Of a stretch of 64,000 nucleotides of DNA, positions 7,409-29,276 are shown piece by piece. Both the position numbers and the translations under genes were made by a program. The stretch is from Mesorhizobium sp. AR02. GTDB lineage: Bacteria > Pseudomonadota > Alphaproteobacteria > Rhizobiales > Rhizobiaceae. The notes beneath the pieces were generated by a model. That model ran no database searches, was not told the origin of the DNA, and saw only the letters and a program-made list of their open reading frames with translations. Numbering within the stretch: position 1 is the stretch's first letter; the number at the start of each line of letters is the position of its first letter. The stretch is from contig NZ_CP080531.1 of NCBI RefSeq assembly GCF_024746835.1, positions 3,926,001 to 3,990,000 on the forward strand, read 5' to 3'.

Positions 7409-7427
7409 AATCTGGTAGGACCAGATT
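7409..7427. promoter_or_regulatory. TGGT-N3-ACCA operator, site 1
   Basis: AATCTGGT-AGG-ACCAGATT, perfect 8-base arms with a 3-base spacer. It matches the FadR-subfamily GntR consensus TGGT-N3-ACCA and shares its core with five other sites in the window. Confidence 0.65.
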
Positions 7428-7485
7428 TCGCGGATAGGCGACGAATGACGACTTGGTGACCGCCTGGCCGCACCGTTTGCGTATT

Positions 7486-7500
7486 TCTGGCTAGACCAGA
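7486..7500. promoter_or_regulatory. TCTGG-N5-CCAGA operator, site 2
   Basis: TCTGGCTAGACCAGA, a near copy of the centre of site 1 (TCTGGTAGGACCAGA), 75 bases away and about 85 bases upstream of the M24 start. Confidence 0.55.
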
Positions 7501-7585
7501 GCGGGCAAAATGGTGCAGATTTGATGCACAGCCTAGGGATTGGGAGCGGAACAAGGTCGATCCCAGGCAATTCAGGGAGAGAGAG

Positions 7586-8776
7586 ATGAACATTGCGCCG
7601 GGCAAGAGTGCCGTCAGCAATATCCCGTTTGAGCAGGCGAGAGTCGACCAGCTGATGGAGGAGGCCGGTATCGATGTGTTGCTCGCGACCTCCAAGCACA
7701 ACACGCAATATCTGCTGGGCGGCTACAAATTCATCTTCTTCGCCGCCATGGACGCGATCGGCCACAGCCGTTACCTGCCGATCGTCGTCTACGAAAAAGG
7801 CGGCCCGGATCACGCGGCCTATATCGGCAATCGCATGGAGGGCGGCGAGCACCAGAACCATCCGTTCTGGACGCCGACGCTGCACGCCGCCTGCTGGGGC
7901 ACGCTCGATGCCGCGAACTTTGCTGTCGAGCATCTGCAGAAGATCGGCAAGGCCGGCGCTCGCATCGGCATCGAGCCCGGCTTCCTGCCGTCGGATGCCT
8001 ACACGCTGATCCGCAAGGCGCTGCCGGACGCCAAGCTGATCGATGCGACGGCGATGCTGGAAAGCATGCGCGCCATCAAGACCGATGCCGAGCTGGAGAA
8101 GCTGCGCACGGCCTCCGAACTGATCACCGATTCCATGCTGGCAACCATTGCCTGGGCGCGCGAAGGCACGACCAAGGCCGAGATGATCGAGCAGATCAGG
8201 CGCGAGGAAACCAATCGCGGCGCACATTTCGAATATTGCCTGCTGACGCTGGGCTCCAGTCACAACCGCGCCGCCTCGCCACAGGCATGGAAGAAGGGCG
8301 AGGTGCTGTCGATCGATTCCGGCGGCAATTATCACGGCTATATCGGCGACCTCTGCCGGATGGGCATTCTGGGTGAACCGGATGCCGAGCTGGAAGACCT
8401 GCTGGCCGAGGTCGAGACGGTGCAGCAGGCGGCATTCTCGAAGGTGAAAGCCGGCACGCTGGGCGGAGACATGATTTCGCATGCGGAAAGCGAGCTGAAG
8501 AAATCCAAAGTCGCGCCCTATACGGATTTCTTCGCCCACGGCATGGGCCTGATCACGCACGAAGCGCCATTCCTGATGACCAACCATCCGGTGACTTATG
8601 AAGGCACCTATGCGGCAAAGCCGCTGGAAAAGAACATGGTGCTGTCGGTCGAGACGACCATGCTTCATCCGACGCGAGGGTTCATCAAACTGGAGGATAC
8701 GCTGGCGGTGACTGAGGGCGGCTATGTGATGTTCGGGGATCGGGGCAGGGGGTGGAACAGGGGTGGGACCGCCTAG
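7586..8776 (+). CDS. M24-family metallopeptidase (Xaa-Pro peptidase/creatinase-like)
   Basis: 396 residues. A creatinase-type N-terminal domain (about residues 15-150) precedes the pita-bread M24 catalytic domain. All five metal-ligand positions can be read: Asp in LSIDSGGNYHG, Asp in YIGDLCRMG, His in FFAHGMGLITHE, Glu in LSVETTM and Glu in IKLEDTLAVTEGG. The start ATG follows a GGGAGAGAGAG purine run. It is divergent from an oligopeptide-type ABC operon and shares operator palindromes with it, so it probably processes the imported substrate, for example by cleaving Xaa-Pro dipeptides or a C-N bond as in creatinase. Specific substrate not predictable. Confidence 0.88.
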   Translation: MNIAPGKSAVSNIPFEQARVDQLMEEAGIDVLLATSKHNTQYLLGGYKFIFFAAMDAIGHSRYLPIVVYEKGGPDHAAYIGNRMEGGEHQNHPFWTPTLHAACWGTLDAANFAVEHLQKIGKAGARIGIEPGFLPSDAYTLIRKALPDAKLIDATAMLESMRAIKTDAELEKLRTASELITDSMLATIAWAREGTTKAEMIEQIRREETNRGAHFEYCLLTLGSSHNRAASPQAWKKGEVLSIDSGGNYHGYIGDLCRMGILGEPDAELEDLLAEVETVQQAAFSKVKAGTLGGDMISHAESELKKSKVAPYTDFFAHGMGLITHEAPFLMTNHPVTYEGTYAAKPLEKNMVLSVETTMLHPTRGFIKLEDTLAVTEGGYVMFGDRGRGWNRGGTA

Positions 8777-8795
8777 CCGGTATTGAAGGGTGCTG

Positions 8796-8943
8796 CCCCC
8801 TCACCCGGATTGCCATCCGAATTGCGAAGGGCAATTCGGGGCAATCCGACCTCTCCCCGAGGGGAGAGGAGGACGCCGGCGTCGATGCCAGCCTCTTCTC
8901 CCCCACGGGGAGAAGGTGGACGCGAAGCGGCCGGATGAGGGGG
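8796..8943. repeat. Palindromic intergenic element (second family)
   Basis: The ends CCCCCTCACCCG and CGGATGAGGGGG are inverted copies, and inside are three smaller hairpins (CCGAATTGC/GGCAATTCGG, CTCTCCCCGAGGGGAGAG, CTTCTCCCCCACGGGGAGAAG). It fills the gap between the convergent M24 and cupin genes and probably ends transcription from both sides. Confidence 0.7.
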
Positions 8944-8973
8944 CCTCCCTGCAAATGAGGGACGGGAGGAAGA

Positions 8974-9390
8974 TTATTTCCCTGCCGGCACCAACCTGAA
9001 ATCCGGCAGCTCCCTCAACGCCAGCTCAGGCCCGGCGGGCGAGTAGACAACAAACAGCTGCATCGGCCCATCGCCGGTGTTCAGCGTTGAGTGAAACCGG
9101 CTCTCAGGCACGTAGATGGTGCAGCCGGGGCCGACCTTCTCGACCACCGGATTGCCCTTCTCGTCCTCGACCATCTGCTCGCCATGCCCCGAGATGACGA
9201 AGATGATTTCCTCCGCGCCTGGATGATTGTGGCGGGTGTGGCCCTTGCCTGACGGCAGGTCGACGACGCCGCCGGAAAAGCGCGTCGCGCCGTTCACTTC
9301 CGGAGCCACCGTCAGCGCCAGCCTGCCCCAGTCGAAACCGAAGGCGCTGACGTCCTTCGGGTAGACAAACACCTTGCTCTTGTCGGTCAT
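8974..9390 (-). CDS. Cupin-domain protein
   Basis: 138-residue single-domain cupin. The metal-binding cupin motif is visible as HTRHNHPGAEEIIFVISGHGE-like sequence (about residues 51-71, His-x2-His-x-His and Glu) and the second motif as ESRFHSTLNTG. No signal peptide, so cytosolic. The start at 9390 has an AAGAAGGG sequence 9 bases upstream; an alternative ATG at 9399 would overlap the upstream stop as ATGA. Last gene of an operon with a TIM-barrel protein and a UPF0261 protein. Likely an isomerase, sensor or small-molecule binding protein of that pathway; reaction unknown. Confidence 0.85.
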   Translation of the reverse strand: MTDKSKVFVYPKDVSAFGFDWGRLALTVAPEVNGATRFSGGVVDLPSGKGHTRHNHPGAEEIIFVISGHGEQMVEDEKGNPVVEKVGPGCTIYVPESRFHSTLNTGDGPMQLFVVYSPAGPELALRELPDFRLVPAGK

Positions 9391-9395
9391 CTCTC

Positions 9396-10262
9396 TCATC
9401 CCTTCTTTTTCTTCGTGGTCGCTTTGTCGCCGCCCAGTGTGACGGCCTTGAAATCGGCCGTCTGCCTGGCGATCGCCGCTTCCGCCGGCAATCGCTCCAT
9501 CGAGCTCGCGCCATAGAAGCCATGCAGGCCCTTGGCATGGGAGAGAATGTATCGGGCGTCGTCCGGCATCGAGATCGGACCACCATGGCAAAGCAGGATG
9601 ACGTCCTTGCGCACCGAGCGTGCGGCGTTGGCGATGGCGTCGATCGCGACAACGCAATCGTCGAGCGACCTGGCCGAGGTGGCACCGATCGAGCCGCCCG
9701 TCGTCACGCCCATATGGGCAACGACGATGTCGGCGCCGGCTTTGGTCATGGCGCGGGCTTCGTCGGGATTGAAGACATAGGGCGTGGTCAAGAGATCGAG
9801 CTTGTGCGCTTCGGCGATCATGTCGACCTCGAGCCCGAAGCCCATGCCGGTCTCTTCGAAACTCTGCCGCATGGTGCCGTCGAACAGGCCGATGGTGGGG
9901 AAATTCTGCACGCCGGAAAAGCCCATCGTTTTCAGCTCGGCCAGGAGCAGCGGCATGATGACGAAGGGGTCGGTGCCGTTGACGCCGGCCAGCACCGGCG
10001 TGTGTCTGACCACCGGCAGCACCTCATAGGCCATTTCCTTGACGATCTCGTTGGCATTGCCATACGCAAGCAGGCCGGCGGCCGAGCCGCGCCCAGCCAT
10101 GCGGTAGCGGCCGGAATTGTAGATGATGATGAGGTCGATGCCGCCGGCCTCCTCGGCCTTGGCCGACAGGCCGGTGCCGGCGCCGCCGCCGACGATCGGC
10201 ACGCCCTTGTCGATCATTCCCCGGAATTTCTTCAGTATGTCCTTGCGCGGTATTGCGGGCAT
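9396..10262 (-). CDS. TIM-barrel protein, phosphoenolpyruvate hydrolase-like family
   Basis: 288 residues; the first block [21 protein letters not shown] and the later [33 protein letters not shown] and [16 protein letters not shown] are conserved in the family annotated as phosphoenolpyruvate hydrolase-like or TIM-barrel enzyme (PF09370). The same domain forms the C-terminal half of plant Tm-1 and of related fungal proteins, whose N-terminal half is the UPF0261 domain encoded by the adjacent gene here. Start ATG at 10262, 11 bases after the UPF0261 stop; the frame is open further up but only inside that gene. Lysine-rich C-terminus. True reaction unproven. Confidence 0.82.
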
Positions 10263-10273
10263 TTTTCTTGGTC

Positions 10274-11470
10274 TCACTGTCTGGCGATGTCGAGGAAAGC
10301 TGCGGTTGCCGCCTTGGCGAATTGGGGATCGTTGATGTGCAGCGGCAAGCGGGTGACGCGGCGCTTGGCATTCGGCTTGATCGTGCGTTCGATGGCTTCG
10401 AACAGGACGGCGTCGGCTTCGGGATCGAAAAAGGCGCCGCCTTCGATGTCGAGTGCCGAGACGCCCTTTTCCGGGATGAGAAAATGTAGCGGCCCTTCGC
10501 AATGGGCGAGCCTGGTGCCGATCCATTCGCCGATCGCGCGGCATTCCTGCGCCGTCGTGCGCATCAGCGTGACGTTCGGATTGTGCTCGTAGAACAGCCG
10601 GCCGCGATAGCGGTCCGGAATGGTCGAGGGCGCCCAGAAATTCACCATGTCGAGCGCGCCGACCGAACCGACATAGGGCAGCTTGCTACGGGCAATCGCG
10701 CCGAAGCGATCCTCCGTTGCCGGCAGCACGCCGCCGAACAGCAGGTCGCAGACCTCGGTCGTGGTGATGTCGATGACACCGGACAGAAGGCCGCTGTCGG
10801 CCAGCTTCTCCATGCTGCGGCCGCCAGTGCCGGTGGCGTGGAAGACCATGCAGTCGTAGGTCGAGCGAAGCTGGTCGGCGATGGCCGTCACGCAAGGCGT
10901 GGTGACACCGAACATGGTCAGCCCGATCGACGGCTTGCCGTCGGGCGACGGCGCCGGCCTGGCCGCCATGCCCGCTATCGCCTGGGCGGCATTGTGAAGG
11001 ACAACGCGGGAGAGACGGTTCAGCCCGGCCATGTCGGTCACCGACGGCATCATGTTGATGTCGGAGACATCGACATAAGGAGCGGTGTCGCCGGAGGCGA
11101 GCGTCGAGACCATGATTTTCGGCAGCCCAAGCGGCAGCGCGCGCATGGCCGATGTGATGATCGATGTGCCACCGCCGCCGCCAATGCCGATCACGGCGGC
11201 AATGTCGTTTCGCGATTGGACGAAACGGGTGAAGGCGACGCCCATGGCGGCAACCGCGGCGCCACGGTCCTCGCCGCCGAGCACGGCTGTGCTGCCGTCC
11301 GGGTGATGGCCGGCAATTTCCTTCGCGGTGATGTCGACGGGGATGGTTGCGTCGCGCGTGCCGACGTCGACACGGGAAACGGCGGCGCCGGTAGCGGCAA
11401 TCGCATCGGCCAGGAAGGCGAGTTCCTCGCCCTTGGTGTCCGCTGTGCCCACGACATAAATGCGCTTCAT
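10274..11470 (-). CDS. Tm-1-like ATP-binding (UPF0261) protein
   Basis: 398 residues. It opens with [20 protein letters not shown], the conserved N-terminal nucleotide-binding element of UPF0261/Tm-1-like proteins, and contains the Gly-rich [15 protein letters not shown] and [15 protein letters not shown] blocks. The tomato Tm-1 resistance protein carries this domain N-terminal to a TIM-barrel domain; here the two are separate neighbouring genes. The chosen start at 11470 is the ATG directly before that motif, with upstream ATGs giving a non-conserved extension. First gene of the operon and divergent from a TetR regulator 51 bases away. Biochemical function in bacteria unknown. Confidence 0.85.
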
Positions 11471-11498
11471 GGGCGGTTCCCAGGTCATTGCAAATTTT

Positions 11499-11533
11499 TG
11501 AGACGCGCGTATCATATTGACATGGATGTCTCA
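11499..11533. promoter_or_regulatory. Divergent promoter region with TGAGAC/GTCTCA inverted repeat
   Basis: TGAGAC (11499-11504) and GTCTCA (11528-11533) face each other across 23 bases in the 51-base gap between the UPF0261 gene and tetR-like gene, running into the first codons of the latter. A possible binding site for the TetR protein; weak evidence. Confidence 0.3.
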
Positions 11534-12208
11534 CGTCAACGATCCACTGCAAGCAGCGACGCCGAGCGGGGAAGCGGCGAGGCCGCCGAGCGCGGACCCC
11601 GGGCGCGCACGAAAAGGCTGATGCTGGAGACGGCGACATGGCTGATGCAGGCGGGCGTTACGCCGTCGGTCAGCGAGGTAGCCGAGGCGGCCGAGGTTTC
11701 CCGCGCCACTGCCTATCGCTATTTCCCGAGCCAGGCGGCATTGGTGCAGGCCGTCGTTGACGAGGGGCTGGGGCCAATCCTGACCTGGCAGTCGACCTCT
11801 CTCGATGCCGAACGCCGAGTCGCTGAATTGTTCGACACGGCCATGCCGCGCATCGAGGCTTTTGAAGCGACGTTCAAGGCGGCGCTGAAGCTGTCGCTCG
11901 ATCAATGGGCACGACGCCAGGCCGGCACGCTGGGCGGCGAGCCGGCCTTCACGCGCGGTCATCGCGTCGATTTGCTGCAGGAGGCGATCGCGCCGCTCAA
12001 GGGCCACTTGCCGCCGCGCGACTTCAAGCGCCTGGCGCAGGCGCTGTCGCTGATCTTCGGCGTCGAGGTGCTGATCGTTCTCAAGGATATCTGGGGCCTG
12101 GACAGCCGCGGGACGAGGTCTGTCGCGCAATGGGCGGCGGGGGTGCTGGTGCGGGCCGCGATGGCCGACTCGGCGATCGGTGGAGAGATGCCGCCAAGTG
12201 CGGGATGA
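11522..12208 (+). CDS. TetR family transcriptional regulator
   Basis: 228 residues. A basic, disordered first 30 residues is followed by the TetR helix-turn-helix, readable as [21 protein letters not shown] (about residues 50-70) and then QAALVQAVV. The remaining C-terminal ligand domain has no recognisable subfamily. The start ATG at 11522 lies only 51 bases from the start of the divergent UPF0261 gene, so it probably represses that operon and itself. The open frame continues far upstream but there it is antisense to the UPF0261 gene. Confidence 0.85.
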
Positions 12209-12211
12209 CAT

Positions 12212-12230
12212 TATCTGGTTCGACCAGATA
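12212..12230. promoter_or_regulatory. TGGT-N3-ACCA operator, site 3
   Basis: TATCTGGT-TCG-ACCAGATA, perfect 8-base arms and 3-base spacer. Its core CTGGTTCGACCA is identical to site 5 at 29083-29094, 17 kb away. Confidence 0.65.
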
Positions 12231-12388
12231 GTTGAGCCAGATGCTGATCTTAATGGCGATACGGAGCCGGAAACAAGGCCGTTGCATATCAAGGAGTAGG
12301 AAAAACAAGATAAAACAGACAGATGCTGCGCCGAATGGCTTATCGTGCCGCCCTTGATCGCTCAAGAAAGAACTTGACGTCTATCTAG

Positions 12389-12406
12389 AATTGGTAATAC
12401 CAGATT
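12389..12406. promoter_or_regulatory. TGGT-N3-ACCA operator, site 4, over a possible -10 box
   Basis: AATTGGT-AAT-ACCAGATT. Its 15-base core ATTGGTAATACCAGA (12390-12404) matches site 6 (29262-29276) at 14 of 15 positions. The TAATAC in the centre could be the -10 of a promoter with TTGACG at 12374-12379, so binding here would block transcription of the sugar ABC operon. Confidence 0.6.
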
Positions 12407-12566
12407 AGGAGCGATAAAGCGGATCGAAAGTGAGGGCTGCGATCCATTTTCCGGCAGGGCGAGGAGGCCCTAAGCCGGAGAAATGCCATCACCGGAGGAA
12501 CTACCAGGGCCGACCACGCTGCCGGCTCGCATGACAAGGGTAGAATGCGCACCAGGGAGGAACATT

Positions 12567-13883
12567 ATGCGCAAGATAATGACCAGCGTGCTTGCTGGTA
12601 TCGGCCTGACGCTTGCCTACGGAACATCCGTCCACGCGCAGGACAAGGAACTCACCATTTTCTGGGCGGAATGGGATCCTGCGAACTATCTGCAGGAGCT
12701 CGTCAACGACTATACGGCCGAGACCGGTGTGAAGGTCACGGTGCAGACCACGCCATGGCCCGATTTCCAGACCAAGGCCTTCACCGAGTTCAACGCGCAT
12801 GGCGACGCTTACGATCTGGTCGTCGGTGACTCACAATGGCTGGGCGCCGGTTCGACGCAGGGCCACTATGTCGATCTGACCGACTTCTTCAACCAGCACA
12901 AGCTCACCGACGTGATGGCGCCCGCGACCATCAAGTATTATGCCGAATACCCTGGCGGTTCCGGCAAATACTGGGCGATCCCGCTGGAAGGGGATGCGAT
13001 CGGCTGGTCCTATCGCAAGGACTGGTTCGAGGACCCAAAGGAGAAGGAAGCCTTCAAGGCGAAGTACGGTTACGACCTCGATGTGCCGAAAACCTATGCG
13101 CAGTTGCGCGACATCGCCGAGTTCTTCCACCGTCCGGACCAGAAGCGGTACGGCGTCGCCATCTACACCGATAATTCCTATGACGCGATGGCGATGGGCG
13201 TCGAAAGCGCCATCTTCAGCTACGGCGGCGATCTCGGCGACTATGCAAGTTACAAGGTCGACGGCATCACCAATTCGAAACAGGCCGCCGCCGGCCTCGA
13301 AATGTACAAGGATCTCTACAAGTTCACGCCTCCCGGCTGGGGAAAGACCTTCTTCGTGGAGGACAACCAGGCAATCACCGGCGGTCTCGCCGCGATGAGC
13401 ATGAACTTCTTCGCCTTCTTCCCGCCGCTGGTGAACAAGGCCACCAACCCCTACGCCGACGTGACGGGTTTCTTCGCCAACCCGGCCGGCCCGGACGGAA
13501 AGCGCTTCGCCGCTCTCGGCGGCCAGGGAGTTTCGGTCGTCTCGTATTCGAAGAACAAAGACGAGGCGATGAAGTTCCTTGAGTGGTTCATCAAGGACGA
13601 GACCCAGAAGAAGTGGGCCGAGCTCGGCGGCTACACCTGTAGCCAGGCCGTGCTGAAGTCGGAAGCCTTTCAGAAGGCCACGCCTTACAACAAGGCGTTC
13701 TACGACACGATGTTCATGGTCAAGGACTTCTGGGCGACGCCTGAATACGCCGAAGTGCTCGATCAGCTGAACCAGAACATCTATCCGTTCGTGGTCGGCG
13801 GAAAGGGCACCGCCCAGGAAGCGCTCGACAAGACCGCCGCCGACTGGAAGGCGACGTTCACCAAGTACAATCGTTACAAGTAA
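12567..13883 (+). CDS. Sugar/polyol ABC transporter substrate-binding protein (SBP_bac_1)
   Basis: 438-residue extracellular binding protein of the maltose-binding-protein superfamily. Start at 12567, 6 bases after a GGAGG box (12556-12560), gives a Sec signal peptide ending VHAQ. Mature protein begins DKELTIFWAEWDPANYLQ; SBP_bac_1 features follow (GDAYDLVVGDSQWLGAG, GKYWAIPLEGDAIGWSYR). It is followed by a stem-loop and then two permeases, a small membrane protein and two ATPases. Two operator palindromes lie upstream. Ligand uncertain: sugar, polyol or glycoside; the operon design with two ATPases recalls rhizobial glycerol/polyol systems. Confidence 0.9.
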   Translation: MRKIMTSVLAGIGLTLAYGTSVHAQDKELTIFWAEWDPANYLQELVNDYTAETGVKVTVQTTPWPDFQTKAFTEFNAHGDAYDLVVGDSQWLGAGSTQGHYVDLTDFFNQHKLTDVMAPATIKYYAEYPGGSGKYWAIPLEGDAIGWSYRKDWFEDPKEKEAFKAKYGYDLDVPKTYAQLRDIAEFFHRPDQKRYGVAIYTDNSYDAMAMGVESAIFSYGGDLGDYASYKVDGITNSKQAAAGLEMYKDLYKFTPPGWGKTFFVEDNQAITGGLAAMSMNFFAFFPPLVNKATNPYADVTGFFANPAGPDGKRFAALGGQGVSVVSYSKNKDEAMKFLEWFIKDETQKKWAELGGYTCSQAVLKSEAFQKATPYNKAFYDTMFMVKDFWATPEYAEVLDQLNQNIYPFVVGGKGTAQEALDKTAADWKATFTKYNRYK

Positions 13884-13895
13884 GCATCACAGCCA

Positions 13896-13929: not shown

Positions 13930-13950
13930 CTGTTTTCAGGGAGACGCTCG

Positions 13951-14856
13951 TTGGCTTCGGTAGCCCTCACCCATCTCGATCCTGCCTCAAGGGCCGCCGC
14001 GCGCGGCTGGTCGGATCTGACCATCCGCAACATGTTCATCATCCCGACGCTGGCGTTCCTGATCGTCTTCAACATCTTTCCGCTGATCTATTCGCTGGGC
14101 TATTCCTTCACGAACTTTGCAGCAAACCGGAGCGAACCCTGGCAGTTCGTCGGCTTGCAGAACTACCGTGAGCTGCTCAGCGACGATCATATCTGGTCGA
14201 ATTTCGTCATCACGGCGAAATACGTCATCGTCTCCGTGGCCGGCCAGATGATCGTCGGCTTCGGCCTCGCCCTTCTGCTCAACCGCAGCTTTCCGATGAA
14301 GGGCTTGATCACCACGCTTTTGCTGCTGCCGATGATGATGTCGGCGGCCGTTGTCGGCTTGTTCTGGCAGCTGCTCTACAGTCCGTCCTGGGGCCCGATC
14401 AACTATGTCTTCGGCCTTGGCGACTTTGCGTGGCTCTCCAATCCCGACAGCGCTCTTTACGCCGTCGCGATCACCGACATCTGGATGTGGTCGCCGTTCG
14501 TCATGCTGCTCTCGCTTGCCGGCCTCTCTGCCGTGCCGCAGCATCTCTACGAGGCCGCCGCGATCGACCGCGCAGGTTGGTGGTACACCTTCACCCGCAT
14601 CACGTTGCCGCTGGTCTCGCCGATCCTTTTGATCGCGCTGATCTTCCGTACTATGGAAGCCTTCAAGACCTTTGACATCGCCTACACGATGACGACCCAG
14701 CCGACCGCCGAGCTCATTGCGATCCGGCTCTACAAGCAGGCCTTCCAGCAGTGGGACACCGGCAAGTCCTGCGCGCTGGCCTATATCGTGCTGATCATGG
14801 TGCTGGCCATCACCAACCTCTACGTCAAGTACCTCAACAAGGTGAAGGAGCGTTGA
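13951..14856 (+). CDS. Sugar ABC transporter permease (MalF-like)
   Basis: 301 residues, six membrane helices. TTG start at 13951 preceded by CAGGGAGA; the first ATG downstream would remove the N-terminal region. The family EAA loop is readable as LYEAAAIDRAGWWYTFTRITLPLVSP near residues 198-224. The stop lies 1 base before the next permease. Inner-membrane half-channel with the MalG-like protein. Confidence 0.9.
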   Translation: MASVALTHLDPASRAAARGWSDLTIRNMFIIPTLAFLIVFNIFPLIYSLGYSFTNFAANRSEPWQFVGLQNYRELLSDDHIWSNFVITAKYVIVSVAGQMIVGFGLALLLNRSFPMKGLITTLLLLPMMMSAAVVGLFWQLLYSPSWGPINYVFGLGDFAWLSNPDSALYAVAITDIWMWSPFVMLLSLAGLSAVPQHLYEAAAIDRAGWWYTFTRITLPLVSPILLIALIFRTMEAFKTFDIAYTMTTQPTAELIAIRLYKQAFQQWDTGKSCALAYIVLIMVLAITNLYVKYLNKVKER

Positions 14857-14857
14857 G

Positions 14858-15814
14858 ATGGCTGCAGTTCGTACAAGCAGCGAAATCGCGCTCAACCGCG
14901 TCGCCATCGTCTCGGTGCTGATCGCGACGCTGATCTTCCTGGCGCCGATCTACTGGATCGCCTCGACGGCGTTCAAGCCGAAGGAACTGGCGATCACCGT
15001 GCCGCCCACCGTGCTGTTCCAGCCGGAGGTCACGCCGTTCATTCGTCTGTTCACCAAGCGCGTACAGATGCAGAAGGCCGTCGACCCGCAAGTCTACGAG
15101 GCCGCGCCTTGGTGGGAGAAGCGCATCTATGATGGCGGCGAGCGGGTGCTGAAGGTCGGCAAGGACGTGCAGCTTTCGCAGTATCCCAACCGGTTTATGA
15201 ACAGCCTGATCGTGGCGATCATCAGCACGGTACTCGCCGTCGGTATGGGAACCTTCACAGCCTACGGCTTCTCGCGTTTCAAGATCGCCGGCGAGGCGGA
15301 CCTGCTGTTCTTCATCCTATCGACGCGCATGCTGCCGCCGGTGGTCGTGGCGATCCCGATGTTCCTGATGTACCGGCTGGTCGGCCTCAACGATTCGCAT
15401 ATCGGGCTGATCATTCTCTACGTCGCCTTCAACCTCTCCTTCTCGGTCTGGCTGATGAAGGGCTTCATGGACGAGATCCCGAAGGAATATGAGGAGGCGG
15501 CGCTGGTCGACGGCTACACGCGTATGCAGGCCTTCTTCAAGATCGTGCTGCCGGAGGCTGCGACCGGCATCGCCGCCACCGCCGTCTTCTGCTTCATCAC
15601 CGCCTGGAACGAGTATGCCTTCGCGCTGATCATGACCAACCGGCGTGCGCAAACCGCGCCGCCCTTCATCCCCAGCCAGATCGGTTCCGGTCTACCGGAC
15701 TGGACCACGATCGCGGCGGGCACCTTCCTGTTCCTGTTGCCGGTCGCGATCTTCACCTTCCTGCTGCGCAACCACCTGCTTCGCGGCGTGACCTTCGGAG
15801 CGATCCGCAAATGA
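14858..15814 (+). CDS. Sugar ABC transporter permease (MalG-like)
   Basis: 318 residues, six helices. Start one base after the upstream stop, with AAGGAG in the end of the previous gene. EAA loop: YEEAALVDGYTRMQAFFKIVLPEA. Compared with MalG it carries a longer segment (about residues 45-105) between helix 1 and helix 2 that should be periplasmic, including WWEKRIYDGGERVLKVGKD. Overlaps the next small gene by 4 bases (ATGA). Confidence 0.9.
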   Translation: MAAVRTSSEIALNRVAIVSVLIATLIFLAPIYWIASTAFKPKELAITVPPTVLFQPEVTPFIRLFTKRVQMQKAVDPQVYEAAPWWEKRIYDGGERVLKVGKDVQLSQYPNRFMNSLIVAIISTVLAVGMGTFTAYGFSRFKIAGEADLLFFILSTRMLPPVVVAIPMFLMYRLVGLNDSHIGLIILYVAFNLSFSVWLMKGFMDEIPKEYEEAALVDGYTRMQAFFKIVLPEAATGIAATAVFCFITAWNEYAFALIMTNRRAQTAPPFIPSQIGSGLPDWTTIAAGTFLFLLPVAIFTFLLRNHLLRGVTFGAIRK

Positions 15815-16032
15815 GCTTTCGCGCGGTCAATGAGAAGTACCTTTTGCCGGCTTCACAGATACTCATGGTGCTGGGCATCGTCGCGCTCTGCCAACCGTGG
15901 AGCCTTGGCCTGCATTCCTATGGCGTGACGATCATCCTGATCGGGCTGATCGGCTTCAACATCACCTCCAAAATTGCGCCGGAGCGCGCGGAGGAAACCG
16001 GCGCCACGACGCATGGGGGGGCCCGGCAGTGA
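15811..16032 (+). CDS. Small two-helix membrane protein of ABC operon
   Basis: 73 residues with two hydrophobic stretches (about residues 13-30 and 36-50) and a polar tail. It overlaps the upstream permease (ATGA, 15811-15814) and the downstream ATPase (GTGA, 16029-16032), so it is certainly translated with the operon. No family recognised; polyol-type ABC operons in rhizobia often carry a small membrane protein of this size next to the permeases. Possible accessory subunit or assembly factor; function unknown. Confidence 0.8.
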   Translation: MSFRAVNEKYLLPASQILMVLGIVALCQPWSLGLHSYGVTIILIGLIGFNITSKIAPERAEETGATTHGGARQ

Positions 16033-17135
16033 CGCAGATCGAACTTCGCGGCATCGAGAAATTCTTCGGCGCCGTCCAGGTCATCCACAATCTGAACCTT
16101 GCTATCGCCGACAACGAGTTCATCGTGCTGCTCGGCCAGTCCGGCTGCGGCAAGACGACGACGCTGCGCGCGATAGCGGGGCTCGAGACGATCGACCAGG
16201 GCGACATCCTGATCGATGGCAAGCCGGTGCAGCACCTCAAGGCCGCCGACCGCGACATCGCAATGGTGTTCCAGTCGTTCTCGCTCTACCCACACATGAC
16301 GGTGTTCGAGAACATCGCCTTTCCGTTGCGCGCAACGCGCATGGGCAGCGACGAGGTCGACAAGTCGGTTCGCGAGGTCGCCCGGGTCCTGCGCATCACC
16401 GACCTGCTCGGCAAGAAGCCGTCGGCGCTCTCCGGCGGCGACATGCAGCGCGTAGCGATCGGCCGCGCGCTGGTGCGGCGGCCGAAGGCGATGCTGATGG
16501 ACGAGCCGATCGGTGCGCTCGATGCCAAGCTGCGCGAGGAGATGCGGGCCGAGATCAAGCGGCTGCACATCAAGCAGGGTTCGACCACGATCTACGTCAC
16601 CCACGATCAGATCGAGGCAATGAGTCTCGCCGACCGCATCGTCATCATGCATGAGGGCTTCATCCAGCAGGTCGGCACGCCGGACGAGGTCTATTCGCAC
16701 CCCGCCAATTTGTTCGTGGCCCAATTCGTCGGCAGTCCGGTGATGAACGTCGCCGACGCGAGCGTTGCCGAAGCGGCCAGCGCCGCCACTGTCACGATCG
16801 GCGATGCGCCGGCGGGTTTCGAGTTCCCGCGTGAGCTCTTGTCCAAGCTCAACGGCCACGCCGCCAATGGCGGGCTGACGCTGGGTATCCGGCCCGAGGG
16901 CGTGCTCGTCCGGCGCGATGCCGCGCCCGGCTACATGCCGGTCGAGGCGCATATCATCGAGCCACTCGGCTCCTTCGACGTTGTCGACCTCAAGGTCGGC
17001 TCCAAGATGCTGCGCGCCCGCACCAAGGCCGGCTATGTCGCCGGTCCCGGCGAGAAGGTCCATGTCCGCATCGATCCAGAGCAGGCACATTTCTTCGATA
17101 CGGCAAGCGGCAAGTCATTGGGGGTGAGGCTGTAA
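16029..17135 (+). CDS. Sugar ABC transporter ATP-binding protein 1 (MalK-like)
   Basis: 368 residues, GTG start overlapping the previous stop. Walker A GQSGCGKTT (about residues 37-45), Q-loop VFQSFSLYPHMTV, signature LSGGDMQRVAIGRAL, Walker B AMLMDEPIGALD, switch VTHDQ. The signature has Asp in place of the usual Gln of LSGGQ. A C-terminal OB-fold (TOBE) regulatory domain fills residues 240-368. Its stop overlaps the start of a second, different ATPase by one base, so the transporter probably uses an ATPase heterodimer. Confidence 0.9.
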   Translation: MTQIELRGIEKFFGAVQVIHNLNLAIADNEFIVLLGQSGCGKTTTLRAIAGLETIDQGDILIDGKPVQHLKAADRDIAMVFQSFSLYPHMTVFENIAFPLRATRMGSDEVDKSVREVARVLRITDLLGKKPSALSGGDMQRVAIGRALVRRPKAMLMDEPIGALDAKLREEMRAEIKRLHIKQGSTTIYVTHDQIEAMSLADRIVIMHEGFIQQVGTPDEVYSHPANLFVAQFVGSPVMNVADASVAEAASAATVTIGDAPAGFEFPRELLSKLNGHAANGGLTLGIRPEGVLVRRDAAPGYMPVEAHIIEPLGSFDVVDLKVGSKMLRARTKAGYVAGPGEKVHVRIDPEQAHFFDTASGKSLGVRL

Positions 17136-18220
17136 TGGCCCATATCGAACTGAAGAACATCACCAAGAAGTTCGGTGGCCACACCGCGCTGACAAGCCTC
17201 AACCTCGACATCGCCGATGGCGAGTTCTTCGTGCTGCTCGGCGAGACGGGGGCCGGCAAGACGACGACGCTGCGGTTGATCGCCGGTCTCGAAAAACCCA
17301 GCGAAGGGCAAGTCCTGATCGACGGCGTTGACGTTGCCGACTGGGGTGCGGCCGAGCGCGATGTGGCGCTGGTGCTGCAGCAATATTCACTCTATCCGCG
17401 CTACACGGTGCGGGAGAACCTTGAGTTCCCGCTGAAGCCGAAGATCCGCCGGCTGCCCGATGCCGAGATCAAGGATCGCGTCGATCGCGCCGCTCGTACA
17501 CTACGGATCGAGCATCTGCTCGACCGCAAGACCGACCGGCTGTCGGGCGGCGAGATGCAGCGTGTCTCCATCGGCCGCGCCATCGTGCGCAAGCCGCGCG
17601 TGTTCCTGATGGACGAGCCGCTGTCGGCGCTCGACGCCAAGCTGCGCGAGGCGCTGCGCACGGAACTCAAGAACCTGCAGATACAGCTCGGCGCCACCTT
17701 CCTGTTCGTCACCCACGACCAGATCGAGGCAATGTCGATGGGCGACAAGGTCGGCGTCTTGAACCACGGCCGCATCGTTCAGACCGGCACGCCGCACGAG
17801 ATCTACAACAATCCGCGCGACACCTATGTGGCGAGCTTCGTCGGCTCACCGCCGATGAACCTCATCGACGGCAGGCTGGTGAACGGCCGCGCTGTGATGG
17901 CGCCGTTGAATTTCGAACTGCCCTTTTCAGGGGGAGCCAGGACGAGCGGGGCGACCGAGGGGCGCCCGCTCGTCTTCGGCATCCGTCCGGAGGATGTCTA
18001 CCTGGAAAGCGGTGCGCCTGTGGAGGCGCGCGTCCATGATGTCGAGAACCATGGCGTCGAAAAGATCCTGACGTTGCGGGTCGGCGAGACGACACTGCGC
18101 GCCACGGTGCCGGCCAGGACCGATGTCGCCATCGAGCAGCCGGTGCGCTTTGCCTGGAACCCGGACAAGGTGGTGCTGTTCGACAAGGGCAGCGGTGTCA
18201 GCTTGCGGCACGCAGGGTAA
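17135..18220 (+). CDS. Sugar ABC transporter ATP-binding protein 2 (MalK-like)
   Basis: 361 residues. Walker A GETGAGKTT, Q-loop VLQQYSLYPRYTV, signature LSGGEMQRVSIGRAI (Glu in place of Gln), Walker B VFLMDEPLSALD, switch VTHDQ and a C-terminal TOBE-type domain. Paralogue of the preceding gene, overlapping it by one base (TAATG). Both keep all catalytic motifs apart from the variant fifth signature residue. Last gene of the operon. Confidence 0.9.
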   Translation: MAHIELKNITKKFGGHTALTSLNLDIADGEFFVLLGETGAGKTTTLRLIAGLEKPSEGQVLIDGVDVADWGAAERDVALVLQQYSLYPRYTVRENLEFPLKPKIRRLPDAEIKDRVDRAARTLRIEHLLDRKTDRLSGGEMQRVSIGRAIVRKPRVFLMDEPLSALDAKLREALRTELKNLQIQLGATFLFVTHDQIEAMSMGDKVGVLNHGRIVQTGTPHEIYNNPRDTYVASFVGSPPMNLIDGRLVNGRAVMAPLNFELPFSGGARTSGATEGRPLVFGIRPEDVYLESGAPVEARVHDVENHGVEKILTLRVGETTLRATVPARTDVAIEQPVRFAWNPDKVVLFDKGSGVSLRHAG

Positions 18221-21598: not shown

Positions 21599-21609
21599 GG
21601 AGACTGACC

Positions 21610-22824: not shown

Positions 22825-22936
22825 TCTCTCATCTCTGACCTATCCAGCGGCCCGAGAACCATCATGGTTTTCCGGCCGCTGCCGTGATGGCGACAACGAA
22901 CGCATGGCAGGCAGATGCGGCGGCATGCCGTTGGCT

Positions 22937-23284: not shown

Positions 23285-23400
23285 CAGTATCTTCCTATCG
23301 CTGGCAGGTGCAAAGGCACGCTGGCCGGGTTATCCCTTCCGCAAGCCCAATCGGCCGCTTGCCTTAAAGACGTTGCATCCTGGCGGAGTCCGACATCGAC

Positions 23401-24696: not shown

Positions 24697-24711
24697 TTGG
24701 CAATTGGCCGA

Positions 24712-25101
24712 TCAGTGCGCCGAACAGTGCTTGCGTTCGCTGTCCTTGGCGGTGCGCACGATGCGGGTCGCGACCAGCCAGGGCAGGCTGTAATCCTTGC
24801 CGGTGATGGTCTGGGCGCGTTGCTCGATCGAGCCTCTGACGACGATCTTGCCGCTGTAAAGCACGTCGGACTGATCCACTATCGCCTTGTCGGCCTGCGG
24901 CAAGCCGCTGGTGTCGATCGACACACCTTTGATGATCATGCCGGTGGCAAGGTCGAGCGCGCTGTTCGATGGGCAGGGCGCCTTGAAGCAGCGCAGCCCA
25001 TTGTCGCAGTAGACATAGCTGCTCTCGGCTGCGGCGAATGCCGGCATGGTGCAGATGGATGAGGCTGCGGCAACCAGCAATTCAAGGCGAAGAGCGGACA
25101 T
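24712..25101 (-). CDS. Putative exported protein, unknown family
   Basis: 129 residues with an N-terminal hydrophobic stretch ending PAFAAAES, a likely Sec signal peptide. The mature part has a Cys-rich segment YCDNGLRCFKAPCPSN, then no recognisable domain, and two further basic regions with a final CSAH. Convergent with the amidase gene and upstream of (same strand as) nothing obvious. No function can be assigned; the Cys residues may form disulfides in the periplasm. Confidence 0.65.
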   Translation of the reverse strand: MSALRLELLVAAASSICTMPAFAAAESSYVYCDNGLRCFKAPCPSNSALDLATGMIIKGVSIDTSGLPQADKAIVDQSDVLYSGKIVVRGSIEQRAQTITGKDYSLPWLVATRIVRTAKDSERKHCSAH

Positions 25102-25141
25102 GGCAGCACCGTCGCGGAGAATTGGGGCGAAACCGCGATTG

Positions 25142-26134
25142 CTATATGTCGAGCGGAAACCGCTGCCGGTAATGATCGACCACTTCCGGATTGCGCAGAT
25201 TGACCGGCAGCTTGCCTGCCAGCACCAGCAGAGCTTCGCCCGCCGCGCCGACGCCCATGCGCATCATCGATTCCTCGGTAATGCCGGCCATATGCGGGGT
25301 GATGATGACGTTGTCGAAGCCGAAATAGGGATGATTGGACGGCAGCGGCTGCGTCGAAAACACGTCGAGTGCTGCACCGCCGATGCGGCCTTCCCGCAAG
25401 GCCTCGATCAGGGCGTCGTCATCGACCACCGGCCCGCGCGACACGTTGATCAAAAGCGCATTGGGTTTCATGCGGGCGATGCGCTCGCGGCTGATCAGGC
25501 CGCGCGTCTCCGGCGTCAGCGGGCAGCAGAGCACGATAATATCGCTCTGCTCGACCAGCGCGTCGATCGACAGGAAGCCAACCTTCTCCGGCGCCGGCTG
25601 CATGCTGCGCGTCGTTGCCACCACTTTCAGGTCGAAGCCGTGCGCGGCGATATGGCCGACGGCCTGTCCGACGGCGCCGAGGCCGACGATGCCGATGGTC
25701 TTGCCGGCAAGCTCGATGTTGGAATTGGCATGCTCGCGGCCGGCGAGCCAGCCCTTGGCGCGCAGGTCGCGGTCGACCCTGCGGAATTGCCGCAGCAGCG
25801 CAAGTGCCGTGAACATGACATGTTCTGCCACCGAGCGTGCATTGACCGCCGGCACATTGGCCACCAGCACGCCGGCCGCGGCCGCCGCTTCCATCGGGAT
25901 CATGTCGAGCCCGGCGCCATGGCGGATGGCAGCGCGCAGCTTCCATGCACCCTCGAACAGCGCCGGCGGCAGTGGTGCGCGCACGATGACGATGTCGGCG
26001 TCCTTGGCCTCCCTGGCCAAGGTGGCGGGATCGAGCGCCGATGCGATCACAAGCTGGCCTGCACCGGCAAGCCTGGACGAGGCACGCGGGTGCAACGGAT
26101 GGGTCGACAGGATCTTTGGCACGGTCTGGGCCAC
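25142..26134 (-). CDS. D-2-hydroxyacid dehydrogenase (NAD-dependent)
   Basis: 330 residues of the D-isomer-specific 2-hydroxyacid dehydrogenase family. Rossmann motif GLGAVGQAVGHIAAHGF, catalytic Arg in NVSRGPVVDDDAL, the Asp/Glu in the following helix and catalytic His in ITPHMAGITEES are all present. GTG start at 26134, two bases after the stop of the GntR gene, so it ends the minus-strand catabolic operon. Probable role: reduction or oxidation of a 2-keto/2-hydroxy acid made from a sugar acid, such as glyoxylate, hydroxypyruvate or a gluconate derivative. Confidence 0.88.
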   Translation of the reverse strand: MAQTVPKILSTHPLHPRASSRLAGAGQLVIASALDPATLAREAKDADIVIVRAPLPPALFEGAWKLRAAIRHGAGLDMIPMEAAAAAGVLVANVPAVNARSVAEHVMFTALALLRQFRRVDRDLRAKGWLAGREHANSNIELAGKTIGIVGLGAVGQAVGHIAAHGFDLKVVATTRSMQPAPEKVGFLSIDALVEQSDIIVLCCPLTPETRGLISRERIARMKPNALLINVSRGPVVDDDALIEALREGRIGGAALDVFSTQPLPSNHPYFGFDNVIITPHMAGITEESMMRMGVGAAGEALLVLAGKLPVNLRNPEVVDHYRQRFPLDI

Positions 26135-26136
26135 GA

Positions 26137-26856
26137 TCAGGCCTTTTCGAGTGCAGCGCTCGTGGGCGCAACCGCCTTGCCGCCCTCGATCAGGCCCTTC
26201 CAGTAGCTCTCCGCGCCTTGCAGATGGGCGCTCATCAGCGCCTGGGCGAGATTGCCGTCGCGGCGCAACAGCGCCTCGTAGATCTGCACGTGCTCGGCAT
26301 GCGAGCGCACGCTGCGTTCGGGATCGTTGAAGTAGATCGGCAGGCGCTGTTCGCCCATCAGATAATAGACGCTGCAGATGTTGTGGAAGACGCTGTTCTT
26401 GGTGGCGCGCACGATCTCGAGGTGGAACTCGCGGTCCTCCTTGGCCAGACCTTCGCCGGCGGCGATGCGTTCCTCGGAAGCCTTGAGGATTTCGCGCAGC
26501 CGCTCGAAATTCTCCTCGGTGGCGCGCGAGCAGGCAAGCTCGGCGGCCTTGATCTCGTGGATCTTGCGCAACTCGACCGTCTCGTAAATCTGCAAGGGAT
26601 CAAGCGGCAGGCCGGCGCGCGCGAACAGCGCCAGCGCCTCGACGCTCGCCTGCTTGGTGTCGATGTAGATGCCGGACTTGGCGCGGCGTTCGACGATGCG
26701 CATGGCTTCCAGGATGGCCAGCGCCTCGCGGATCTGGCCGCGGCTGACGCCGAAATGCTCCGCCAGCTCACGCTCCGACGGCGTGCGGCCGGTCTCGCTG
26801 TCCGAGTGGGAGAACAGATAGGCGGCGAGTTCCGCGAGAAGGTTCTTTTCTTTCAT
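26137..26856 (-). CDS. GntR family regulator, FadR subfamily (FCD domain)
   Basis: 239 residues. Winged helix at residues 5-66 (RTPSERELAEHFGVSRGQIREAL, then IVERRAKSGIYID) and an FCD ligand domain at about 85-215 with the usual metal-site His/Asp pattern (EDREFHLEIVRATKN, HAEHVQIYEALLRRD). Start at 26856, two bases from the stop of the dehydratase gene. Its position inside the catabolic operon and its subfamily make it the best candidate for the TGGT-N3-ACCA sites in this window, two of which lie upstream of this very operon. FadR-type regulators usually repress until a pathway intermediate binds. Confidence 0.9.
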   Translation of the reverse strand: MKEKNLLAELAAYLFSHSDSETGRTPSERELAEHFGVSRGQIREALAILEAMRIVERRAKSGIYIDTKQASVEALALFARAGLPLDPLQIYETVELRKIHEIKAAELACSRATEENFERLREILKASEERIAAGEGLAKEDREFHLEIVRATKNSVFHNICSVYYLMGEQRLPIYFNDPERSVRSHAEHVQIYEALLRRDGNLAQALMSAHLQGAESYWKGLIEGGKAVAPTSAALEKA

Positions 26857-26858
26857 CG

Positions 26859-28028
26859 TCAACTGCGTTGCGCGTGCGCCTCCAGGAATCGCTCCGAAAT
26901 GGTGAATCCCAATCCGGGCTTTTCCGGGATCGCTATCATACCGTCCTTGGCTTCGACAGTCTCTTCGATCAGATCGTGGATCATCGGGTTGGCGCCGAGC
27001 GAATATTCGACGGTGAAACTCGACGGCGAGGCGGCGCAGACATGCAGCCCGGCGAAGAAGCAGGGCGCACCGGCCCACAGATGCGGCGCAAAGCGCAGAT
27101 TGAAAGCGCTGGCGATGGTGCCGATCTTCATCGCTTCGCTGATGCCGCCGCAGAAAGCAGGATCGGGCTGGAAGATATCGGCCGCTTTCAGCACCGCGAG
27201 GTCGCGGAAGGCATAGCGCGTCGCCTCGCTTTCGCCGGTGGCAATCGGAACAGCACCCGATGCGCGCACTTCCGCCATGCCGGGCTTGTCGTCGGCGATC
27301 ACAGGCTCCTCGAACCAGGCGAGATCGAGGTCGTTGACGAGATGGATGAAGCGCTTGGCTTCCGCCACCGTATAGGTGCCGTGGGCGTCGACCATCAGCT
27401 CGACATCGGGGCCGAGCGCCTGGCGCGCGGCGCGCACACGGGCGGCGGAAATGTGCGCGGCACCATCCATGGCGCCAACCCGCATCTTCAGCGCCTTGAA
27501 GCCGCCCCGGGCGATGTAGGATTTCAATTGCTCGCCGATTGCATCGGCGGATGCCCAGCCGCCGGAGGCATAGGCCTGCATGCGGTCGAGCTTGCGGCCG
27601 CCGAGCAGCCGCCAGACCGGAACCCCTAGTGATTTGCCGAGAATATCCCAGAGCGCGATGTCGACGGCGCTGATGGCGGCGACGCTCATGCCGCGCCGCG
27701 CCAGTTGCGGCATGGCGTGGCCGGCGCGCGCGGCACTGTCGTGGCGCACGCCGTTGTAGAGCATCTCCCAGATGATGCCGATATCGGCCGGATCGCGGCC
27801 GATCAGCTGCGGGCCGACCTCATGGTTCAGCATGTGGACCAGCGCGCCGTAGCTGCCGGCGCTGCCGGCGGCGTTCTTGCCTTCGCCCCAGCCGACCAGC
27901 CCGTCATTGGTTTCGATGCGCAGGATGGCGGCGTCGAAGGTCGTCACCTGGCCGAAGTCGCTGCGATGCTGCTTCGCGGCTTCGATCGGGATGCGGACCC
28001 ACCAGGCTTGGATGGTCTTGATGCGCAT
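26859..28028 (-). CDS. Mandelate racemase/muconate lactonizing (enolase superfamily) dehydratase
   Basis: 389 residues. N-terminal capping domain, then a TIM barrel. The second-strand base is in KALKMRVG (Lys-x-Arg); metal ligands Asp in VDAHGTY, Glu in FEEPV and Glu in ATGESE; the His-Asp dyad is seen as ADIFQPD and FAPHLWAG. The His-Asp dyad puts it with the mandelate racemase-like acid-sugar dehydratases. Likely substrate is a sugar acid such as galactonate, fuconate or tartrate, giving a 2-keto-3-deoxy acid. Second gene of the operon, after a TIM-barrel isomerase. Confidence 0.88.
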   Translation of the reverse strand: MRIKTIQAWWVRIPIEAAKQHRSDFGQVTTFDAAILRIETNDGLVGWGEGKNAAGSAGSYGALVHMLNHEVGPQLIGRDPADIGIIWEMLYNGVRHDSAARAGHAMPQLARRGMSVAAISAVDIALWDILGKSLGVPVWRLLGGRKLDRMQAYASGGWASADAIGEQLKSYIARGGFKALKMRVGAMDGAAHISAARVRAARQALGPDVELMVDAHGTYTVAEAKRFIHLVNDLDLAWFEEPVIADDKPGMAEVRASGAVPIATGESEATRYAFRDLAVLKAADIFQPDPAFCGGISEAMKIGTIASAFNLRFAPHLWAGAPCFFAGLHVCAASPSSFTVEYSLGANPMIHDLIEETVEAKDGMIAIPEKPGLGFTISERFLEAHAQRS

Positions 28029-28088
28029 GTCTTTCCCCAGCCCTGCCGCCGGTCAGGGCGGAAGGGCAAATTTCCCAGAAGCAGTCGA

Positions 28089-28976
28089 CTACTTGATCAG
28101 CGGCAGCAGCGTTTCGGCGGTGATGCGCATCTGGTCGGTGTAGAATTTTTCGGTCAGCACGCTGGAGCCGTGGTCCTGGATGAACTTCAACTGCTCGGGC
28201 GAGATATCGACCGGGTGGCGCTCGACCATTTCGGGGTAGGGTGCCGCCGGCGTGCGGTCGACCGGGGCGACGAACTCGTTGGTCAGTGCGCCGTCGTAGC
28301 CGACTTCCTTCAAGGTGGCGACGATCCTGGGCCAGTCGATCTGGCCAAGGCCGGCGGCGAAGCGGTTGTTGTCGGCGACATGGAAGTCGAACAGGCGCTT
28401 GCCGACCTGACGGATGGCGTCATGGACGTTAAATTCCTCCATGTGGATGTGGTAGGCGTCGAGGCAGACACCGCATTCGGGGCTGACCGCGTCTGCCAGC
28501 GCCAGCGCCTGGGCGCCGCGATTGAACAGGTAGGTCTCGAACCGGTTCAGCGGCTCGACGGCGATCTTGACGCCGACCTTCTTGGCATGGGTGAAGCATT
28601 CGCGGGTCGCGTCGACCACCCACTTCCATTCTTCTTCCTCGGTACCGTCGGGCACCACCTTGCCGACGGTCGCCGGAACCAGGGTGATGATTTCGCCATC
28701 GAGCTCGCTGACCATGGTCAGCACGTCCTTGACATACTGCACCGAGCGCTCGCGCTGTCCCTGGTTCTTGGCGGCAAGGTTGCGCTCGCCCAGCATCAAG
28801 GTCACCGCACCCCAGCAGCGGATGCCATGCTCCTTCAGCAGCGCCCGCGTCTCCTTGGTCTTGTACTGCTCGGGCTCGCCGGAAATCTCGATCGACTCAT
28901 AGCCGAATTTCTTGATGCGCTTGAGCGTCGTCTCCAAAGGCTCCGCGCGCATCCAGTTGTGCGTCGAAAGATGCAT
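28089..28976 (-). CDS. Xylose-isomerase-like TIM-barrel sugar isomerase/epimerase 1
   Basis: 295 residues of the AP_endonuc_2 sugar phosphate isomerase/epimerase family. Metal-site features: Glu in IAVEPLNRFET, Asp/His in CLDAYHIHMEEF, His in FDFHVADNNR and Glu in TNEFVAPVDR. Start ATG at 28976 after GGAAGGA; upstream in-frame extension is not conserved in character. First gene of the minus-strand operon, about 106 bases downstream of operator site 5. Probably interconverts keto-sugars or keto-acids in a sugar-acid pathway. Confidence 0.85.
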   Translation of the reverse strand: MHLSTHNWMRAEPLETTLKRIKKFGYESIEISGEPEQYKTKETRALLKEHGIRCWGAVTLMLGERNLAAKNQGQRERSVQYVKDVLTMVSELDGEIITLVPATVGKVVPDGTEEEEWKWVVDATRECFTHAKKVGVKIAVEPLNRFETYLFNRGAQALALADAVSPECGVCLDAYHIHMEEFNVHDAIRQVGKRLFDFHVADNNRFAAGLGQIDWPRIVATLKEVGYDGALTNEFVAPVDRTPAAPYPEMVERHPVDISPEQLKFIQDHGSSVLTEKFYTDQMRITAETLLPLIK

Positions 28977-29081
28977 GGTTTGTCCTTCCCAAATTCGTCC
29001 GTATGGTTTGCCTGCGACATGCATCGCCGAAAGGCGACGCAAGGGTTCCTCCCCAAGGCATCCCCAGCCTTTTTCCTGCAA

Positions 29082-29096
29082 ACTGGTTCGACCAAT
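29082..29096. promoter_or_regulatory. TGGT-N3-ACCA operator, site 5
   Basis: ACTGGTTCGACCAAT; inner TGGT-TCG-ACCA is perfect. Core CTGGTTCGACCA is shared exactly with site 3. It lies upstream of the minus-strand operon that contains the FadR-type gntR gene. Confidence 0.62.
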
Positions 29097-29261
29097 TGGG
29101 CCTGAAGTGAGGTCTACAGCAAATTCTAGGGAACGGCAAGAAGCGGGGCAGCGCAACTTTTTGTGCGAATTACTCCGTTGATTGTATTGTGATATATGTC
29201 GATACTTCTGGTGTGCCGAGGGCTTTGCCGGTGCATTGTCCGGCTTGACCAAATTTCGCTA

Positions 29262-29276
29262 TTTGGTAATACCAGA
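29262..29276. promoter_or_regulatory. TGGT-N3-ACCA operator, site 6, over a possible -10 box
   Basis: TTTGGTAATACCAGA, 14 of 15 bases identical to site 4 (12390-12404). TAATAC in its centre could serve as -10 for the plus-strand operon starting at 29379. Confidence 0.62.

Follow-up and report, generated by a model that had tools for sequence, protein, structure and literature searches.

How are matching palindromes at three separate loci put to use, and which protein reads them? The question is raised by the window analysed here, a stretch of 64,000 nucleotides from the genome of Mesorhizobium sp. AR02, in which a preliminary description had pointed out six sites (S1 to S6) with the core TGGTN3ACCA or a close variant and had assigned them to a single regulator of the FadR type. 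The six sites are indeed present, five of them with the exact core (S1, S3, S4, S5 and S6, starting at 7413, 12216, 12392, 29084 and 29264) and S2 (core start 7488, TGGCTAGACCA) with one mismatch; as had been claimed, CTGGTTCGACCA is common to S3 and S5, and TTGGTAATACCAGA to S4 and S6. What that description overlooked is that the sites are arranged in pairs of fixed spacing and overlap predicted promoter elements. S1 (7409-7427), an operator-like palindrome between a peptide-type ABC operon and an M24 gene, lies 75 base pairs (bp) from the operator-like S2 (7486-7500); S3 (12212-12230), just past the stop codon of a TetR gene, and S4 (12389-12406), the putative distal and proximal operators of a sugar-ABC promoter, are 176 bp apart; and 180 bp separate S5 (29082-29096) from S6 (29262-29276), putative operators in a divergent intergenic region. 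Judging from sequence comparison, we consider it probable that all six are operators of a repressor encoded at 26137-26856, which would act on them in pairs and by DNA looping, the S5-S6 loop being assisted by the protein IHF.

Such palindromes might have arisen by chance, or be repeats without a regulatory role. The exact core is present 75 times in the genome (8,909,615 bases), with 0.18 copies expected in the 21.9 kb that hold the sites and five observed, which is more than chance would give; apart from the six sites, the 64-kb window has 11 one-mismatch matches and not a single exact core. The extended form YTGGTN3ACCAR is found 24 times genome-wide (43 for its control), five of them in this stretch. 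A simple rule based on the longest open reading frame (ORF) and on G+C content at third codon positions (GC3), used in place of a gene caller, puts 11 of the 24 within high-GC3 ORFs, leaves three ambiguous and three without such an ORF, and finds seven to be intergenic, namely the five of this stretch and two before a DJ-1/PfpI gene; S1 and S5 count as intergenic given the start codons chosen for the neighbouring genes, and longer, spurious ORFs overlap both. The comparison of intergenic with coding sites, which the preliminary description had proposed as a check, came out divided: the motif does occur inside genes elsewhere in the genome, but not at this density. The 75 cores, and the extended sites (at least 11 of 24) that lie in ORFs, are what a chance origin has in its favour; the excess in this stretch speaks against it, and it is contradicted by conservation, since S3-S6 persist in every one of 44 relatives examined and S5-S6 also in 28 other genera. 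We regard it as extremely improbable. As a side observation, the genome has 183 copies of the reversed control pattern, which thus outnumbers the motif, and operator-like sequences may be avoided genome-wide.

The control regions of 44 Mesorhizobium relatives show what has been kept within the genus. Exact cores stand at S3, S4, S5 and S6 in all 44 and at S1 in 42, which bears out the conservation upstream of orthologues that the preliminary description had named as a test of its proposal. The distances are kept as well: S5-S6 measures 180 bp in 43 of the 44 and 178 bp in one, S3-S4 measures 176 bp in 42 (188 and 175 bp in the others), and the S1-S2 pair, in its TGGC or TGGT form, measures 74-76 bp in 37. 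Mean identity to the window is 66% inside S5-S6 and 58% inside S3-S4, and five adjoining segments, at 76-84% identity, show 6-14 length classes, as against the nearly invariant interiors of these pairs; outside that range fall the seven bases from the TetR stop codon to S3 and the S1-S2 interior (54% identity), with four classes each. On a tree of 75 loci (the 44 relatives, the window and 30 loci of other genera, counted only where each core was exact and each flanking gene present), which is rough, as it was built on 360 bp of one gene, 11 changes fall on the S5-S6 spacing, against 49 and 43 on the distances of S5 and S6 to the next genes; within Mesorhizobium, the same tree gives one change against 24 and 18 in the flanks.

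Does the arrangement extend beyond the genus? The regulator is found in 69 of 297 genomes of the family and in 30 of the 109 genera sampled, its own included. Outside Mesorhizobium, 40 of 64 loci (29 genera) were fetched, and 38 of these, from 28 genera, were long enough to be compared. All 38 have an exact core at S6 and 33 have one at S5; in the five other loci S5 has one mismatch and stands 155-177 bp away from S6. The S3-S4 pair, the sugar ABC genes, the regulator operon and the S5-S6 pair are recognisable in many of these loci, and in the remainder the 20 kb retrieved are too short to reach the ABC genes, or lack them. Among 33 scored loci, S5-S6 is 180 bp in 16 (13 genera), 170-179 bp in 10 and 139-156 bp in seven; on plasmid pRL12 of Rhizobium johnstonii, S3-S4 is 180 bp and S5, with one mismatch, stands 177 bp from S6. 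Interior identity of the 180-bp loci to the window is 0.30-0.47, only the promoter blocks and a block in the centre being conserved, and the constancy of the distance across genera despite this drifted interior suggests a loop of fixed size. The S5-S6 distance is also independent of the length of the intergenic region (correlation of -0.11 over 24 loci with a spacing above 165 bp, window included, and of 0.25 over all 31), as in the divergons of the FadR subfamily, whose relatively constant double-site distance is read as cooperative in the sections drawn on here (Suvorova et al., 2015; PMC4494728).

The IHF consensus was scanned over both strands of the stacked S5-S6 stretches. The best position overall has an offset of 87 from the core of S5 and its centre at 93, the loop midpoint being 95.5, with an AT-rich flank. 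In the window it corresponds to an IHF-like site at the S5-S6 midpoint (29171-29183, minus strand), which agrees with the consensus at eight of nine positions and whose occupancy is putative. The 44 Mesorhizobium sequences average 7.95 of 9 at this offset and 16 loci from other genera average 6.38 of 9; none of 2000 circular-shift nulls reaches the observed score, their maximum being 4.44. Several of the 175-179 bp loci have a match at most 2 bp from the midpoint and others have none, and the 139-156 bp group is mixed. The genes for both IHF alpha and IHF beta are encoded in the genome. A counterpart at the S3-S4 midpoint (93.5) was sought and not found, the best offsets in Mesorhizobium being 148 (7.0 of 9) and 71 (6.63 of 9).

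The position of the sites relative to predicted promoters indicates how they might act. In the Mesorhizobium footprint a conserved CTTGAC precedes the S4 and S6 cores by 13-14 bp, which makes the TAATAC within each operator (12395-12400 and 29267-29272) a likely -10 element; the predicted -35 elements are TTGACG (12374-12379, plus strand) for the sugar-ABC promoter and TTGACC (29245-29250, plus strand) for the plus-strand catabolic operon, both in conserved sequence. Directly upstream of S5, the conserved blocks TTGCCG and TAGACC, 17 bp apart (29111-29139, minus strand), would be the -35 and -10 of the regulator operon, with S5 just downstream of this predicted promoter. Three of the loci compared have a one-mismatch operator (TGGCTTGACCA) in the -35 region, 23 bp before S6, and the -35 ahead of S6 may itself serve as a weak site.

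According to the mechanism proposed here, the GntR/FCD protein would repress until a pathway metabolite releases it. Bound to S4 and S6, it would mask the -10 elements of the sugar-ABC promoter and of the plus-strand catabolic one, and at S5 it would lie just beyond the start of the minus-strand operon that carries its own gene. Two dimers bound to one pair would join and form a DNA loop, IHF would bend the S5-S6 DNA midway so that both sites meet, and the spacing would be fixed to the base pair, with the sequence free to drift, because both arms must stay in register. It could also be that the same regulator represses each promoter from its own site alone, the S5-S6 distance being fixed by packed elements, for example an activating IHF site. 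The location of S5 at the predicted minus-strand promoter and of S6 at the plus-strand one would suit this account, as would the presence of an IHF-like site and phase statistics that depend on the period assumed (Rayleigh p for distinct spacings of 0.051 at 10.5 bp and 0.46 at 10.75 bp). However, the approximately 45 bp from the central block to the -35 before S6 are little conserved in other genera and keep their length in the 180-bp loci, S3-S4 maintains its 176 bp in the genus over an interior that is 58% identical, and the published reading of constant double-site distances, in the sections drawn on, is cooperative control (PMC4494728). Independent action of the sites seems to us rather unlikely.

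Looping in pairs remains the preferred reading, and a number of observations weigh against it. Within Mesorhizobium, S1 is without an exact core in two of the 44 relatives and one member of the S1-S2 pair is missing in seven. The 180-bp spacing is not universal, the distance being 139-179 bp in 17 of the 33 scored loci of other genera and 165 bp, between one exact and one degenerate site, on pSymA of Sinorhizobium meliloti, which also has a spacing of 167 bp; S3-S4 varies outside the genus (160-179 bp in 15 loci, 65 bp in one, a single exact core in six). The Rayleigh statistic is strongly period-dependent, since besides the values already given it yields p = 0.008 at 10.25 bp and 0.006 at an unphysical 11.5 bp, and coarse spacing classes give 0.21 at 10.5 bp. 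With regard to IHF, scores at single loci range from 3 to 8 of 9, and nine of 2000 shuffled consensi reach the observed score anywhere, four of them in the central 40 positions; the S3-S4 centre is AT-rich in the genus and has no central IHF match, nor does a match occupy a consistent place there in other genera. If the reading is nonetheless true, a length that stays constant in many genera while the sequence drifts would allow looping to be tested on an evolutionary scale, and loci with natural spacings of 139-180 bp would be material for measuring the joint effect of loop size and IHF. DNA-loop repression is usually demonstrated in a single organism.

Which protein, then, would bind? The product of 26137-26856 (minus strand), the proposed binder, carries an N-terminal GntR winged helix (PF00392, 43.9 bits; cut-off 27) and a C-terminal, all-helical FCD domain (PF07729, 87.2 bits; cut-off 24.3), so the FadR-type gene that had been placed in the operon behind S5 is upheld by its domains. 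Recognition of TGGT-N3-ACCA-like sites by this subfamily, which the preliminary description had cited, matches the published operator consensus TKGT-3 nt-ACMA, and the regulator operon is preceded by S5-S6 both here and in 38 of the 38 loci of other genera that were long enough. NanR, LldR, UxuR, GlcC, ExuR, PdhR and FadR have the same domain architecture, and several of them use the same operator core, according to the sections of the study considered (PMC4494728). Their NCBIfam models all score far below the curated cut-offs (the best, NanR, reaches 97 against 260), which indicates that none of these characterised regulators is an orthologue.

The distribution of the genes agrees with a common regulon. 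Orthologues of the regulator are present in 131 of 146 Mesorhizobium genomes, its own included (132 matches at 1e-30, one of them just 36% identical), and the M24 gene is also present in 131, the two occurring together in 130, neither in 14 and one alone in two, which are fragmented assemblies. The TIM-barrel gene beside the regulator is found in all 69 regulator-positive genomes of the family, and without it in one, an assembly of 770 contigs. This co-occurrence is weak evidence, because linked genes are gained and lost together. The TetR protein is another conceivable binder; in several of the 20-kb loci where both S5-S6 and the GntR gene are retained no TetR match was seen, though its gene may sit outside those stretches. 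Of the earlier proposal that a single regulator links the three loci, the domains, the consensus, the conservation and the co-occurrence speak in favour; it is limited by the 46 FCD hits in the genome and by the tie to S1-S2, the weakest of the three as it depends on motif likeness and on conservation within Mesorhizobium. The regulon is, on balance, well supported and not proven.

A further pair extends the same question. A DJ-1/PfpI gene at 4035176-4035978 of contig C2, 45 kb to the right of the window end, is preceded by two cores with 74 bp between them; among 30 loci, its own included and drawn from 47 orthologues, the proximal core is present in all 30 and a second core in 23, at a distance of 74-75 bp in 19. 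Two or more FCD regulators could share the motif, the product of 26137-26856 acting at S3-S6 and another FCD protein at S1-S2 and the DJ-1 pair. The 46 FCD hits would provide candidates, and the three central bases of the core differ between S3-S6 on the one hand and S1-S2 and the DJ-1 pair on the other, with the S1-S2 comparison covering Mesorhizobium only. Two further FCD regulator genes, at C2:3920034 and at about 54344 in the window (C2:3980344), lie close enough to be possible alternative binders. Against such a division, DJ-1 (77% identical) and M24 (74%) belong to one cluster on R. johnstonii pRL12, M24 accompanies the regulator in 130 of 146 genomes, and for the second GntR gene, which adjoins DJ-1 on pRL12, this genome offers nothing closer than 27-33% identity. 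We judge a division among regulators to be quite unlikely, less so than a chance origin of the sites. The pSymA cluster of S. meliloti includes M24 as well (74% identical).

The genes behind S3-S4 have proved less constant than the operators. Eleven Mesorhizobium genomes have the regulator and lack a close orthologue of the sugar solute-binding protein (SBP), and in six of six of these examined, S4 is followed by a different ABC cassette (ATPase, SBP, two permeases, ATPase), whose SBP is 27-28% identical to the native one. These six relatives also retain a piece of the native second ATPase gene, truncated at its 5' end and 90-98% identical, and S3-S4 is 176 bp in all of them. This can be read as non-orthologous replacement of a transporter behind unchanged operators.

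Two operators at a fixed spacing, with an architectural protein between them, are also found in the GalR repressosome of E. coli, which differs from the system proposed here in its LacI-family repressor, its shorter loop and its use of HU in place of a sequence-specific IHF-like site. Atu1419 of Agrobacterium fabrum, an FCD protein of the VanR subfamily, is tetrameric and joins palindromes 190 bp apart into a loop, as visualised by electron microscopy in the portion of the report used here (PMC7797058). Common to both systems are an FCD protein (as a repressor, here, by inference), a divergent intergenic region and two palindromes; unlike the protein discussed here, Atu1419 binds a palindrome of 10 bp and regulates a different set of genes, and that portion of the report describes neither an IHF site nor evolutionary constancy of spacing. 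With the FadR-subfamily divergons, as far as the sections cited cover them (PMC4494728), the locus shares TKGT-3 nt-ACMA, double sites, a regulator gene in one of the operons and a distance independent of intergenic length. Their distance is relatively constant, whereas the one described here holds to the base pair in Mesorhizobium and in 13 further genera; the central IHF-like site and the co-directional pair S3-S4 are additional. A literature search of open papers, supplements excluded, turned up neither this regulon nor a GntR loop centred on IHF. The case goes beyond a routine regulon prediction in its base-pair-exact spacing, in the IHF-like site at the centre and in the exchange of a transporter whose operators stayed fixed. 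The more general proposal, of a Rhizobiaceae FCD repressor with an autoregulated, IHF-centred loop of locked size, its length kept exact by selection until most of the sequence within could no longer be recognised, and an operator module that outlives the genes behind S3-S4, is tentative, and we hold it with a little less than even confidence. What this testable regulon would control is an uncharacterised catabolic route, present in 30 of the 109 genera sampled, including plasmids of Rhizobium and Sinorhizobium.

The genes around the sites give a general idea of that route. On the minus strand, 1949-7219 encodes the peptide-type ABC transporter (two ATPases, a permease and a family 5 SBP), followed on the plus strand by the M24/creatinase-like metallopeptidase gene (7586-8776); cupin, PEP-hydrolase-like, UPF0261 and TetR (about 11612-12208) genes lie between the latter and S3. 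Behind S3-S4, the sugar ABC operon, MalK-type with two ATPases, comprises an SBP gene (12561-13883, plus strand; an ORF start is possible at 12483) and two permease and two ATPase genes (13951-18220, plus strand). On the minus strand before S5 are genes of the 2-hydroxyacid dehydrogenase family (25142-26134), for the GntR/FCD regulator, of the mandelate racemase/muconate lactonizing enzyme family (26859-28028) and for a sugar-epimerase-like TIM barrel (28089-28982, start codon chosen by us); on the plus strand after S6 are those for a TIM barrel (AP_endonuc_2, 29373-30434), a Gfo/Idh/MocA oxidoreductase (30585-31772) and another sugar-epimerase-like TIM barrel (31750-32661).

A glycosylated peptide or sugar-acid conjugate had been suggested as the substrate, and for this no support was obtained from NCBIfam or from solved structures. 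An NCBIfam scan of ten proteins reached no cut-off among the matches listed, and comparison with solved structures returned distant relatives or chains named by family only, without an assignment; the best match of the oxidoreductase, 3v5n, is close but named just oxidoreductase. A sugar or sugar-acid route is a general reading of the enzyme families only, and a transporter of the peptide-type class need not be for peptides.

Two minor observations concern other parts of the cluster. Between S1 and the peptide-type SBP gene, a block of approximately 85 bp (7300-7385, minus strand) has most of its columns highly conserved in 43 sequences. An Rfam search of 7000-30000, this block included, gave no match, and a leader peptide before the peptide-type operon was rejected, as the start context of the 14-codon ORF is present in just seven of the 43. 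For the UPF0261 (Tm-1-like) and PEP-hydrolase-like (PF09370) genes at 9396-11515, the literature search found no function; the two adjoin the cluster in many other genera.

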